A stretch of 64,000 nucleotides of DNA. It comes from Sporosalibacterium faouarense. Its GTDB lineage: Bacteria; Bacillota; Clostridia; Tissierellales; VENL01. The DNA lies in NCBI RefSeq assembly GCF_016765695.1, contig NZ_JAETGO010000084.1, positions 1 through 64,000 on the forward strand. Direction: 5' to 3'. The notes beneath the pieces were generated by a model. It ran no database searches and was not told where the DNA came from. It saw nothing but the letters and a program-made list of their open reading frames with translations. Shown piece by piece: positions 32,325 through 48,063 of this stretch. The position numbers were made by a program, and so were the translations under genes. Every line of letters begins with the position of its first letter. Position 1 is the first letter of the stretch.

Positions 32325-33296
32325 TTATATTTCTCTACCAAGGAGTTTTTCTGTTAAATCATATAAATATTTTCTATATTTATTATCTGGTAGCTTTTCT
32401 AAATATATTTTAGCTTTTTCTATATATCTATCTAATAATTTCTTAGTATACTCTATTCCCCCTGATGATTTAACAATATCACTTATCTCAGATAAAGAAT
32501 TCTCATCAATATCTCCTTGGAGTAAATCCTTAAGCTGATTTTTGTACTTTTTACTATTCAAAGCATATATAACGGGTAGGGTATATATACCAACTGTTAT
32601 GTCATGCAACACAGGCTTTCCCAGCTTGTCCATAGTCCCTTCGAAGTCTAAGATATCATCCTGTAATTGAAAAACAGTTCCTAGAGTCATGCCAAATTTT
32701 CTAAGGTATTTTATAGTATTTTTATCACATTCAGCTGTTTCTGCTCCGATTTGACACGATAGACCGAATAATAGTGCCGTCTTATATTTAATACGTTTTA
32801 AATATTTTGTTGTACTCACATTTAAATCGTTTCTTGATTTATATTGTTCAACTTCACCTTCACAGATACTTTTAAGAATCTTTGCTATATGAGATGAATT
32901 CTTTAGTTTAGAATCTCCATCTAAATATTTAGAAGTTAATAATAAGGACTTTGTAACTAAAAAGTCTCCTGTGAAGATGGCTATTTTATTTCCATGTAAT
33001 TTATGAGTAGCTGGCTTACTTCTTCTCAATTCGGCTTCATCAATTACATCATCATGCACTAAAGTTGCTAAATGTAAAAGCTCTACAGAAGCTGATAAAT
33101 TAATTGCTGCTTTTCCATCATAGTTTCCAAACTTAGCACTATTAATTAGTAATGCAGGTCTCAAACGCTTACCTCCTGCGTTTATTAGTCTTCTACATTC
33201 TTCTTCTAGAATAGAGTTCTTGCTTTTAACGCTTTTTATTAAGCTTTCTTCAACCTTTTTTAATTCATTTAAAATTTCTTGTGTATACAGGTTCAT
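32325..33296 (-). CDS. dmkB: Polyprenyl diphosphate synthase (HepT/DmkB-like)
   Basis: A 323-residue trans-isoprenyl diphosphate synthase making the side chain of (demethyl)menaquinone. First Asp-rich motif D82-DVID86 in LATLVHDDVIDEAELRR, preceded by GGKRLRP; second in FQLQDDILDFEGT. ATG with GAAGGGAGA. The family symbol could also be hepT. I use dmkB because it is directly followed (upstream in coordinates) by apbE, a double FMN-binding lipoprotein and a type II NADH dehydrogenase, the company of DmkB in extracellular electron transfer loci. It lies 14 bp behind apbE, in one operon. Confidence 0.88.
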   Translation of the reverse strand: MNLYTQEILNELKKVEESLIKSVKSKNSILEEECRRLINAGGKRLRPALLINSAKFGNYDGKAAINLSASVELLHLATLVHDDVIDEAELRRSKPATHKLHGNKIAIFTGDFLVTKSLLLTSKYLDGDSKLKNSSHIAKILKSICEGEVEQYKSRNDLNVSTTKYLKRIKYKTALLFGLSCQIGAETAECDKNTIKYLRKFGMTLGTVFQLQDDILDFEGTMDKLGKPVLHDITVGIYTLPVIYALNSKKYKNQLKDLLQGDIDENSLSEISDIVKSSGGIEYTKKLLDRYIEKAKIYLEKLPDNKYRKYLYDLTEKLLGREI

Positions 33297-33309: not shown

Positions 33310-34350
33310 CTAAGGTGTTACTATTTGAAATTCTTCATTTGTTTGTTCAAATTTATCTTTTACACCTTTTGATAGATATAGTTTTTTATCTTTAGTAATA
33401 TAAATAATTTCTATTTCATCTAAGCTATTAGCTAATTTAAGACCTTCTTCTACTCCTAGTACATAAAAAGCTGTAGATAATCCATCTCCTTGTATAGAAG
33501 TATCAGATAATACTGAAATTCCTGCAACATTATTTCTGGCTGGATATCCTGTTTTTGAATCAATTATATGATGATACCTTACTCCATCTTTTTCAAAATA
33601 TCTTTCATAATTTCCAGAGGTAACTACTGAAATGTCTTCGTCCTGTACAATTCCTACATGCTTCTGTCTAACTCTATATGGATCTTGAATTCCGATTCTC
33701 CAAGCATCTCCATTTGGCTTTGAGCCTACCGCAAAAATATTACCACCCAAATCAATTATTGCACTTTCAACCTTATTTTCTAAAAGTATTTTTTTTGCTT
33801 CATCAGCAGCATATCCTTTAGCTATACCACCTAAGTCCAATACCATTCCAGGCTCACTTAAATAAACCATATTATCTTCCATTAACTCTAATTTATTATA
33901 GTCTATCTTTAGAAGATTTTCTTCTATCTCCCCTTCTGATGGTATTCTTTCATGCTCAGTACCTATGCCCCAAAGCTTTACCAATGGACCTATAGTAGGT
34001 TCAAAGGCTCCATGACTGATTTGCGCAAATTCTTTTGCTTTCTTTAGAACATAATATACATCATCGTGAACTTTTACTGGCTTTATGCCCGCATTATCAT
34101 TAATTTTACTTACATCACTCGTCTCGATGTTTATACTCATTCTATTTTCAATTTCATCAAATCGATTAAAAACCTTATCAATGATTTCTTCATTTTGATG
34201 ATCATAAAGGGTAACTACAACGAAGGTTCCAAGCATAAAACTATCTTTAGATAATGTTTCAGTTGGTTGTTGATTATCTGTACACCCTGATAAAGCAGTA
34301 GTTATTATTATTGCAAAAATTAAAAAATATATTATTTTTCTTTTATACAT
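33310..34350 (-). CDS. apbE: FAD:protein FMN transferase (ApbE/FmnB-like lipoprotein)
   Basis: A 346-residue secreted flavin transferase that attaches FMN to Thr/Ser of S-G-A-T motifs using FAD. Lipobox ALSGC (Cys23); ApbE core with GGIAKGYAADEAKKIL, GGNIFAVG and the metal/FAD region SIQGDGLSTAFYVLG near the end. The ATG at 34350 follows AGAGGTG by six bases. Its probable substrate is the lipoprotein encoded just upstream (34496-35428), which has two SGAT motifs. In Listeria the counterpart is FmnB. A terminator lies between the two genes, so expression can differ. Confidence 0.94.
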   Translation of the reverse strand: MYKRKIIYFLIFAIIITTALSGCTDNQQPTETLSKDSFMLGTFVVVTLYDHQNEEIIDKVFNRFDEIENRMSINIETSDVSKINDNAGIKPVKVHDDVYYVLKKAKEFAQISHGAFEPTIGPLVKLWGIGTEHERIPSEGEIEENLLKIDYNKLELMEDNMVYLSEPGMVLDLGGIAKGYAADEAKKILLENKVESAIIDLGGNIFAVGSKPNGDAWRIGIQDPYRVRQKHVGIVQDEDISVVTSGNYERYFEKDGVRYHHIIDSKTGYPARNNVAGISVLSDTSIQGDGLSTAFYVLGVEEGLKLANSLDEIEIIYITKDKKLYLSKGVKDKFEQTNEEFQIVTP

Positions 34351-34425
34351 TATCAACACCTCTTTCTCAAATAATACACCACTATATAGTTTATCATATT
34401 TCTACAAAAAAAGATAAAAATATTT

Positions 34426-34454
34426 TAAAGCCCCAACGAAAAGTTGGGGCTTTA
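34426..34454 (-). terminator. Terminator behind the flavinylated lipoprotein gene
   Basis: The GC-rich stem TAAAGCCCCAAC/GTTGGGGCTTTA with a five-base loop, then an AT-rich tract with T runs on the minus strand. Separates pplA from apbE-dmkB, perhaps partly. Confidence 0.85.
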
Positions 34455-34495
34455 ATAGCTGTAATAATCTTTTAAATTTACTATTTAAGAGATAT

Positions 34496-35428
34496 TTATT
34501 TTGCGTCAGCTAATGCCTGTTCTGCAAGATCAAAGAACTCTTTAACATGGATAGTAGCTCCTGAAATTGCATCTGTATGTCCTTCTTCACTTGTGTACTC
34601 TATATCTGTTGGGTCTTGTGTTTCTATTAAATAAGCTTCTGCTGCTGATGCTTGTTCAACCCATGTTGATTGAGCTCCACCATTTTCTACCATACCATAG
34701 TCTCCATCTGCTGATGCTTGATCTTTAGACTTATCAGTATCTTCACCTATACCATCCCAATCAGCTGCTACTATATATCCATTAACAACTGTGATACTAG
34801 CATAGTATTTCCAACCATTACTAAACTCATCCATTTCAGCATAGTAATGACCATCTTTATATTGTCCTTTACCTTTAGGTCCTTGAGCTAAAGCCTTATT
34901 TGCTAAATCAGCAAATTCTTTAACTCCAATTGTTGCTCCTGAAATTGCATCTGTGTGTCCTTCTGCATCAAACTCTATTGCGTCAAAGTTTTGGTTGTCA
35001 ACTAAGTACTTCGCAGCAACTTCTGCTTGCTCATACCAAGGTGCAATTGCTCCACCATTTTCTACCATACCATATTCACCATCTTCTGATGCTTGACTCT
35101 TTGTTTTACCAGCGTTTTCGCTAACGCCTTCCCAATCTGCTGAAACAATTTTACCATCTTTTACTTCTAATGTTGCAACATATTTCCAACCATTGTGGAA
35201 TTCATCTTGTGTTGCAAAATAAATACCATCTTCTAATTCTTCCACATTTACATCTTCATTACCTGTATCTTCGTCTTCTGTGTTGTTGTCATTGTTGTCA
35301 ATGTTTTCATCGTTGTTAGTATCGTCAGCTGAATCTGCATTGTCTACATCCTCAGTTCCTCCACAACCAACTGCTACTAATGAAAATGCCAACATTAACA
35401 CTAATAATAATGCTAAACTTTTCTTCAT
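34496..35428 (-). CDS. pplA: Lipoprotein with two FMN-binding domains (PplA-like, extracellular electron transfer)
   Basis: A 310-residue surface lipoprotein: signal peptide and lipobox AVGC (Cys22), a highly acidic Asp/Asn/Glu linker (25-66), then two tandem FMN-binding domains (about 66-182 and 190-309). Each domain has a near-identical core: DGxYxA, EFxNGWKY, ADWxG, K-Q-A-S-x-DGxYGMVENGGA, and a flavinylation motif GHTDAISGATI with acceptor Thr166 and Thr292. Listeria PplA also has two FMN sites and passes electrons out of the cell. ATG with AAGGGGGAT. Strong promoter (35479-35507) and a Rex-like site (35515-35532). Transcribed away from ndh2. Confidence 0.92.
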   Translation of the reverse strand: MKKSLALLLVLMLAFSLVAVGCGGTEDVDNADSADDTNNDENIDNNDNNTEDEDTGNEDVNVEELEDGIYFATQDEFHNGWKYVATLEVKDGKIVSADWEGVSENAGKTKSQASEDGEYGMVENGGAIAPWYEQAEVAAKYLVDNQNFDAIEFDAEGHTDAISGATIGVKEFADLANKALAQGPKGKGQYKDGHYYAEMDEFSNGWKYYASITVVNGYIVAADWDGIGEDTDKSKDQASADGDYGMVENGGAQSTWVEQASAAEAYLIETQDPTDIEYTSEEGHTDAISGATIHVKEFFDLAEQALADAK

Positions 35429-35866: not shown

Positions 35867-37711
35867 TTGAAAAAAATAGTAATTCTAGGCGGCGGATATG
35901 GTGGAATAAGCGCTGCGAAAAAACTTCATAAGAAGTTTAAGAAAGATGATAATGTGCAAATTACGCTTATTGACCAAAATCCACATCATACGTTATTAAC
36001 TGAGTTACATGAGGTTGCCGGTAACAGAGTAACACCAACAAGTCTTTTAATTGACTTAAAGAGAGTTTTTAAATCTACTAAAGTTAATGTTGTCCAAGAT
36101 AAGATAACAGATGTAGATTTAGAAGGAAAGGAACTTAAATCTAGCAAAGAGATTTATGACTTTGACTATCTTGTTTTAGGAGTTGGTAGTGAGCCAGCTT
36201 ACTTCAACATCCCAGGAATGCAAGATCATGCATTCACTTTATGGTCAATGAAAGATGCATCAAAAATTAGGACTCAAGTACTTAAAATGTTTGAAAAAGC
36301 AAGTAAAGAAAGTAGTTCTGAAAAAAGAAAGTCACTTCTAACATTCGTTGTTGGTGGTGGTGGTTTTACAGGAATCGAGGTTCTTGGAGAACTAGTTCAA
36401 TGGACTAAAGTACTTGCTAAAGAATATGATATTGATCCTAATGAGATTCAACTTAAAGTTGTAGAGGCCATGGACAAGATATTACCTGTTCTTCCAGATT
36501 CATTAGTTAAAAAAGCTACTAGATTCCTTGAGAAGAAAAACGTTGAGGTTCTTACTAGCACAATGATTACTGGCGTATCTGATAGCAAGGTTGATTTTAA
36601 AGATGGTAGCTCAGTTGAAACTAATACCTTAATCTGGACTGGTGGAGTTAAAGCTAATGATTTCGCTAAGCAAATTGGTCTTGATGTAAATAGAAAAGGT
36701 AGAATCTTAGTAAACGACTACCTTCAAACTAATTTTGAAAATGTATATGCAATAGGTGATAATGCTGACTTCAGAGATGAAGGAAAAGAATCACTACCTG
36801 CACTTGTTGAAACTGCTATGCAAACTGGTAAATGTGCAGCTGAAAACATATATAATGATATTAAATCTAAAGAAAAGAAAGAAATGGAATTAAATCTACA
36901 TGGTGTTATGGTTTCAATAGGAAGTAAATATGGTGTTGCTGACACAATGGGACTTAGAACATCAGGTATAATAGCTATTTTATTTAAGCATATGATTAAC
37001 CTTCATTATTTATTTGAAATAGCTGGATTTGGAGTAGTTTTCGAATATATGATTCACCATTTCATCGAAAAGAACTACCAAACAAACCTATTCGAAAAAG
37101 AACTTGTTAGACACGCTGGAGCTAAGACATATGCTTTCTTCTTACCAGCAGTTAGAATGTTCTTAGGTGTTATGTGGTTAAGGGAAGGTCTTCATAAGTT
37201 AGGTTACAACTTCCTACGCGCTGGAGATAATGGTTTTATTTGGTTCGCTAAGGACTCATGGTTAGCAAACTGGTGGAATACTCTTGCAATCCAAGTTCCT
37301 AACCCACCAGCTGATGTAACTTCAGGAGCTTCTTTAATGAACCTTATTGGAGATCATACACCAGGATGGTATGAATGGTTTACAAATCTAACAGTTTATA
37401 ACGCTCCTATGTTCTTCCAAAAGATGGTTGTAATAATAGAATTAGGATTAGGATTAGCTTTCCTTTTCGGAGCATTTACTTTTATAGCAGGTATCATTTC
37501 TACAGTAATGATGATAAACTTTGCAATATCAACTGGAATTTCAGTTGACCAATACTGGTTCATATTCGCTTCAATTTCTTGTATGAGTGGTTCAGGAAGA
37601 GCTTTCGGATTAGACGCTTATATCATTCCTTACGCTGAACAACAATGGAGATATTTTGCAGACAATCGTGGTATAAGGCTGAATCCGTTTAGACCAGTCA
37701 AAAAAATATAA
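35867..37711 (+). CDS. ndh2: Type II NADH dehydrogenase with C-terminal membrane domain (Ndh2 of EET loci)
   Basis: A 614-residue protein. Residues 1-425 form the FAD/NADH two-dinucleotide-binding enzyme (GGGYGG at 8-13, second Rossmann motif FVVGGGGFTGIE, and VYAIGDNAD near 300). The rest (about 425-614) holds four or so membrane helices with DoxX-like features (FLPAVRMFLGVMWLREGLHKLGYN... ELGLGLAFLFGAFTFIAG... IFASISCMSGSGRAFGLDAYI). Ordinary NDH-2 is about 400 residues and only membrane-associated; the appended membrane domain is the hallmark of Ndh2 in flavin-based extracellular electron transfer. It would pass electrons from NADH to (demethyl)menaquinone. TTG start eight bases after AAGGGGG. 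Divergent from the pplA-like gene. Confidence 0.93.
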   Translation: MKKIVILGGGYGGISAAKKLHKKFKKDDNVQITLIDQNPHHTLLTELHEVAGNRVTPTSLLIDLKRVFKSTKVNVVQDKITDVDLEGKELKSSKEIYDFDYLVLGVGSEPAYFNIPGMQDHAFTLWSMKDASKIRTQVLKMFEKASKESSSEKRKSLLTFVVGGGGFTGIEVLGELVQWTKVLAKEYDIDPNEIQLKVVEAMDKILPVLPDSLVKKATRFLEKKNVEVLTSTMITGVSDSKVDFKDGSSVETNTLIWTGGVKANDFAKQIGLDVNRKGRILVNDYLQTNFENVYAIGDNADFRDEGKESLPALVETAMQTGKCAAENIYNDIKSKEKKEMELNLHGVMVSIGSKYGVADTMGLRTSGIIAILFKHMINLHYLFEIAGFGVVFEYMIHHFIEKNYQTNLFEKELVRHAGAKTYAFFLPAVRMFLGVMWLREGLHKLGYNFLRAGDNGFIWFAKDSWLANWWNTLAIQVPNPPADVTSGASLMNLIGDHTPGWYEWFTNLTVYNAPMFFQKMVVIIELGLGLAFLFGAFTFIAGIISTVMMINFAISTGISVDQYWFIFASISCMSGSGRAFGLDAYIIPYAEQQWRYFADNRGIRLNPFRPVKKI

Positions 37712-47544: not shown

Positions 47545-48063
47545 CTAATAGTTTATGATTTTTGAAAAGTTTTTCTCAAAGGTTCTAGTTATCATTATAG
47601 AGCTTAACCCCACAAAATAACCTGTGAATAGACTAACTAGTGACATTATAGGGAGATAAGAAAATATCTTTATATTCTCCATAATTATACTAGCTACACC
47701 TATTTGAGCTATATTATGGGCCATGGCTCCAAAGATACTTACTCCAATTAAGCTAAAAAAGTTTTTGAAAAATTTAAACACTATTCCCATAACTATTACA
47801 CTTAATATGGCTCCAGCAAGGCTATAAAATAGTCCTGAAAAACCCCCTGTTGCCAAAGCAAAGGTTAAACTTCTTATAACTGCCACTGCAAAAGCCTCTT
47901 TAAATCCAAAAATCACCAGTGTAGTTAGTACTACCATATTAGACAATCCTAACTTAGCTCCCGGCGCTAGAAAAGGCACTGGCATTGTAGATTCTATTAT
48001 ACTAAGAGCTAAGCCTACAGATACTAATAACGATAAAAAAACAAGTTTTTTGATTCGACTCAT
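47545..48063 (-). CDS. Gx transporter family membrane protein (EetB-like)
   Basis: A 172-residue, five- to six-helix protein of the heptaprenyl-diphosphate-synthase component I/Gx transporter family (PVPFLAPGAKLGLSNMVVLTTLVIFGFKEAFAVAVIRS, GGFSGLFYSLAGAILS). The fold resembles ECF-type S components. In extracellular electron transfer loci this family is EetB, paired with a NusG-II protein (EetA), as here. The same pair is also common beside maf/mre in Clostridia, so its link to the genes at 32-38 kb is inference. Confidence 0.8.
   Translation of the reverse strand: MSRIKKLVFLSLLVSVGLALSIIESTMPVPFLAPGAKLGLSNMVVLTTLVIFGFKEAFAVAVIRSLTFALATGGFSGLFYSLAGAILSVIVMGIVFKFFKNFFSLIGVSIFGAMAHNIAQIGVASIIMENIKIFSYLPIMSLVSLFTGYFVGLSSIMITRTFEKNFSKIINY

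Follow-up and report, generated by a model that had tools for sequence, protein, structure and literature searches.

The window studied here, a stretch of 64,000 nucleotides from Sporosalibacterium faouarense (contig NZ_JAETGO010000084.1, positions 1 to 64,000), encodes a two-domain lipoprotein that is best read as a membrane-anchored two-FMN carrier of the Gram-positive flavin extracellular-electron-transfer (EET) type, anciently duplicated and homogenised by gene conversion, with a probability of roughly 0.7 for this reading. The gene and its parts are as follows.

34496-35428, minus strand: gene of the two-domain FMN-binding lipoprotein (PplA-like), 310 amino acids, ATG start
35363-35428, minus strand: signal peptide and lipobox, residues 1-22, with putative lipid-acceptor Cys22 (LVAVGC), read by eye
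35240-35362, minus strand: disordered Asp/Asn/Glu linker, residues 23-63, from composition (28/41 D/N/E) and low pLDDT at 34-61
34877-35239, minus strand: FMN_bind domain 1 (N type), residues 64-184, hairpin VKDGKIV, from profile, alignment and AlphaFold
34502-34870, minus strand: FMN_bind domain 2 (C type), residues 187-309, hairpin VVNGYIV, from alignment, AlphaFold and fold matches
34931-34933, minus strand: codon of the predicted flavin acceptor Thr166 (DAISGAT), from sequence
34553-34555, minus strand: codon of the predicted flavin acceptor Thr292 (DAISGAT), from sequence

The sequence-only reading of this gene had proposed an internally duplicated FMN lipoprotein, and its anatomical claims hold well. 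The two halves are 58-59% identical over 119 aligned residues (E=2e-47), a lipobox precedes them in the N-terminal lipoprotein signal MKKSLALLLVLMLAFSLVAVGC, and each half contains the three blocks described as near-identical (EFxNGWKY, DGxYGMVENGGA, GHTDAISGATI). The positions named as acceptors, 166 and 292, are indeed occupied by Thr within EGHTDAISGATI, where the [S/T]GA[S/T] acceptor motif of FMN_bind (PF04205) occurs as the consensus DAISGAT at 160-166 and 286-292. The linker, put at about 40 residues, is as acidic and amidic as claimed. The protein scores 38.7 bits against Pfam FMN_bind, with a curated cut-off of 22, a single stretch (domain 1) passing this cut-off unaided, and domain 2 is assigned to the family because of its 59% identity both to domain 1 and to the solved structure 2kzx. 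With two FMN_bind domains behind a lipobox, the protein falls among the multi-flavinylated proteins, defined by more than one such domain and an extracytosolic location (PMC8238504).

The AlphaFold2 model, for which 18 relatives served as input, shows one fold in two copies with pLDDT mostly about 90 or more, while confidence is low across most of residues 1-61. The closest fold matches are to the Clostridium thermocellum A3DHT5 domain (PDB 2kzx; Z 14.0, 59% identity, 59-60% to the window C domain), which differs in having been solved as a single 131-residue domain under an entry title without function, and to Clostridium perfringens CPE2226 (PDB 3o6u; Z 13.3), in which the fold is shared and the acceptor Thr conserved (PMC10339131) but there is one domain with 23-30% identity. 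Crystallised covalent-FMN domains were matched as well (8p2a, Z 7.7; 8p2b, Z 6.5). That only one acceptor is in use, or that domain 2 is structural and the protein no two-flavin carrier, is scarcely probable. The acceptor motif does drift in relatives (SGVS, SGAS, AGVT), SGVS or AGVS replacing SGA[S/T] in most members of the subfamily (L008-L046), and in a model enzyme an Ala-to-Val change cuts flavinylation by about 50% (review PMC12052999); however, both window motifs are perfect DxxSGAT, both domains are predicted to be well folded, and every aligned relative retains Ser or Thr at both acceptors, Ser being an accepted flavinylation target (PMC12052999).

The surroundings of the gene were examined by profile searches, and the following features were found in the window.

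33310-34359, minus strand: apbE, an FmnB-like FAD:protein FMN transferase gene, downstream and on the same strand (Pfam ApbE, 311 bits)
34425-34455, minus strand: intrinsic terminator in the gap separating apbE from the lipoprotein gene, with a 13-bp stem and a U tract (z=-5.35)
32325-33296, minus strand: polyprenyl diphosphate synthase (HepT-like; quinone tail), next after apbE (profile matches)
35867-37711, plus strand: NDH-2 type NADH dehydrogenase with a DoxX/MauE-like C-terminal domain (Ndh2-like; Pyr_redox_2 E=7e-46)
47545-48063, minus strand: EetB-like ECF-S candidate for FAD export (PF07456; profile match, role from PMC9973259)
48079-48480, minus strand: EetA-like NusG_II protein (PF07009; profile match)

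The adjacency of apbE, noted in the sequence-only reading, is thus correct, and the gene content of the whole locus fits a Listeria-type flavin EET neighbourhood: apbE, the NDH-2 gene and the quinone-tail gene adjoin, the NDH-2 gene lying upstream of and divergent from the lipoprotein gene (the DoxX/MauE match in its C-terminal part is weak and below cut-off), and the eetA/eetB-like genes are located about 12 kb from the lipoprotein gene, surrounded by cell-shape genes. A DHNA polyprenyltransferase is encoded at another place in the genome. In 21 Bacillota loci, several of them truncated by contig ends, the lipoprotein gene adjoined apbE in 11 and NDH-2 in 10. Because a strong terminator intervenes, co-transcription of the lipoprotein gene with apbE is not to be assumed, and the two are probably not one simple operon, and owing to it the carrier may be produced in greater amounts than the ApbE enzyme. 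An Rfam scan of the window at gathering scores returned no element. By these data, the occurrence of Listeria-style flavin EET loci extends to a Tissierellales-like organism.

In the proposed mechanism Cys22 would tether the lipoprotein to the membrane via the disordered acidic spacer, with the two FMN_bind domains in tandem, and the downstream ApbE would place FMN on Thr166 and Thr292, its FAD probably being exported by the EetB-like protein, as Listeria EetB is required to supply FAD to FmnB (PMC9973259). Electrons would then pass from NADH via NDH-2 to a membrane naphthoquinone, the putative donor, and through the two FMNs to an extracytosolic acceptor, which may be Fe(III), soluble flavin or a flavoprotein reductase. 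The suggested function of a short flavin wire at the cell surface needs restatement on two points. The term "wire" overstates what is known, if one judges by analogy with SaFMN3, a protein with three FMNs and flexible linkers which shows a single potential of -184 mV (PMC10339131), and "membrane-proximal" is safer than "cell surface" because a 41-residue linker is by our own estimate unlikely to span the Gram-positive wall.

Statements about the whole genome (97% complete) come from single-family searches of it. The ApbE family has one match there, and this sole ApbE must serve five FMN_bind proteins besides the window lipoprotein: a flavocytochrome-c-like reductase (L002, G000:C10:19820-20038), a single-domain PplA-like lipoprotein (L006, C58:81777-82025), an NqrC-like protein (L004, C41) and two RnfG proteins (L001, C83; L003, C85:74499). 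The window protein might on that account be a tethered carrier for a dedicated extracytosolic reductase or another envelope enzyme and not a part of general EET towards minerals or soluble acceptors, since the reductase on contig C10 combines FMN_bind with FAD and ApbE would load it together with both RnfG, the NqrC-like protein and the second lipoprotein. The reductase gene is, however, unlinked to the lipoprotein locus, and the NDH-2/quinone neighbourhood resembles that of EET loci, so this alternative is regarded as unlikely, and a carrier of the flavin EET type is preferred.

The best known protein for comparison is PplA of Listeria monocytogenes, in which FmnB flavinylates two sites (PMC9973259), identified as Thr143 and Thr265 (PMC8906456). 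Both are lipoproteins with two FMN_bind domains and two acceptor Thr, spaced by 122 in Listeria PplA and 126 in the window protein, with ApbE/FmnB and NDH-2 as neighbours and quinone genes nearby, but the motif is SGATI-[GH]V in the window protein in place of TGATHSS in a true member of the PplA family (L068), and a longer middle segment and a separate subfamily set the window protein apart. Against the PplA model NCBIfam NF041941 it scores 70.9 bits, far below the cut-off of 325, which together with the separate subfamily makes doubtful the PplA orthology presupposed earlier. In a wider tree the window protein is placed in its own subfamily with 100% support, and other two-domain subfamilies form their own N and C clades, on few columns and long branches, while the true PplA is represented there by its N domain alone, the other domain having been dropped by the motif filter. 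On these sequence comparisons the duplication likely arose independently in several FMN-lipoprotein subfamilies, and the window protein and Listeria PplA are probably not orthologous domain by domain.

Another group for comparison is the short-domain multi-flavin proteins described in 2021, which likewise combine several covalent-FMN domains within a single extracytosolic chain. Their FMN_bind domains are 83-89 residues long, present in three or four copies and more than 80% mutually identical (PMC10339131), whereas those of the window protein are about 120 residues long and of two diverged types. Meheust et al. numbered multi-flavinylated extracytosolic proteins in thousands (PMC8238504), and multi-flavinylated lipoproteins loaded by ApbE are already known, so the window protein is ordinary in kind; only its evolutionary mosaic goes beyond the routine, as a pattern of modest interest.

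The sequence-only reading took the near-identical blocks as a sign of recent duplication, and this did not survive the comparison with relatives. The same two domain types occur in relatives from Clostridia to Spirochaetota, members of several families within the order, Petroclostridium, Anaeromonas, a metagenome-assembled genome (MAG) labelled Robertmurraya and Spirochaetota all having two-domain proteins. In the domain trees the halves group by type across phyla, the window N half among N halves and its C half among C halves, and in the tree of the 5' part the window C segment joins the C segments of family f18 with 99% support. The types are told apart by a beta-hairpin, K-D-G-K in the N type and V-N-G-Y/T in the C type, to which the window conforms (KDGK and VNGY), and two of its positions discriminate fully or almost fully between them: at the first, Lys is found in 24/24 N domains and the commonest C-domain residues in none of them, and at the second, Asn is found in 24/24 C domains and in 1 N domain. 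In the 5' part the window halves agree in 12/26 synonymous choices, where codon usage predicts 14.5 +/- 2.4, which means saturation of the synonymous sites in this part. The combination of trees, hairpin residues and synonymous saturation indicates that the duplication is old and predates the compared families.

The competing explanation, a recent doubling in the host lineage from a single-domain ancestor, could point to the common blocks of the 58-59% identical halves and to the nearest relative, of the same family (G001; L020/L063, 9498-10022), where a single-domain lipoprotein of 163 aa stands at the equivalent place, between equivalent apbE and NDH-2 neighbours in the same gene order as in the window. 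It is also compatible with the approximately unbiased (AU) test, which on the whole domain (about 125 columns) did not reject the window N and C halves as a sister pair (p=0.20) and is too weak to decide, the pair of L037 not being rejected either (p=0.18), and on the 5' part again left the window halves as sisters unrejected (p=0.37). The diagnostic type hairpin in each half, the 99% placement with family f18, the saturated 5' synonymous sites and the distribution of two-domain relatives in many families and in Spirochaetota nevertheless speak against it, and the G001 domain carries the N-type hairpin, as expected from loss of the C domain or from a recombination deletion between N and C domains, either of which is a possible origin of that gene. 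The search for relatives across the host family yielded three genomes. On the combined evidence a recent doubling is held to be very improbable and was rejected in favour of the old duplication. It follows that tandem FMN domains may appear freshly duplicated though they are old, and block identity is unfit for dating them.

The likeness of the halves is unevenly distributed within the domain. All strongly type-specific columns are located in its first half and none in the flavin-attachment part, and most of the identical blocks of the window halves fall in the 3' part, which has a synonymous identity of 31/44 against 22.0 +/- 3.1 expected; the longest stretch of identical DNA between these halves measures 26 nt (p=0.0085 by column shuffling). 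Among the genes compared such stretches are as long as 77 nt, and the halves of L008, L009, L037 and L038 are 85-89% identical in DNA in the 3' part vs 59-66% in the 5' part. The trees of the two parts are in conflict accordingly: in the 3' tree the N and C copies group by organism, with support of 99 for L008/L009, 96 for L037 and 93 for L038, while in the 5' tree a single branch (94) sets the C domains apart, and the AU test on the 5' part rejected the L008/L009 copies as a group (p=0.007), with p=0.07 for those of L037. This conflict in relatives is what intragenic gene conversion confined to the flavin-attachment segment would produce. The motifs are also under purifying selection, which contributes to the likeness but leaves the synonymous identity unexplained. 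In the window gene itself the trace of conversion is only moderate, the signal being stronger in relatives. A search of the available literature library on gene conversion in flavinylated proteins yielded no paper.

In the preferred reading the N and C types would keep unlike beta-hairpins while the flavin-attachment two-thirds are occasionally homogenised by intragenic conversion. A more specific model can be offered tentatively, as one that is doubtful at present: the hairpins are kept distinct by position, the flavin-attachment segment is repeatedly recopied by conversion, and expansion or collapse affects the N-C pair as a unit. If this is true, the two flavins are kept chemically equal and the docking surfaces unlike, one for the donor and one for the acceptor. 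The diverged hairpin, set against the homogenised flavin segment, gives a concrete lead to the surface that sets electron direction. Expansion is seen in L014 (G054) and L016 (G041), which have four domains in 546-547 aa arranged NCNC, and because of this arrangement the pair, not the single domain, is taken as the unit that expands; collapse would correspond to the single domain.

Relatives from diderm Spirochaetota (L041-L046) have two domains without lipid Cys or linker and are probably soluble periplasmic carriers; in the flanks seen, neither apbE nor NDH-2 was found. The joint lack of both elements gives some support to the earlier view of the linker as a spacer that holds the domains off the membrane. 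In one MAG sequence (L049, 6029-6707) the hairpin region is missing from both domains, which lead into near-identical 3' repeats, an arrangement that could be a repeat-induced misassembly.
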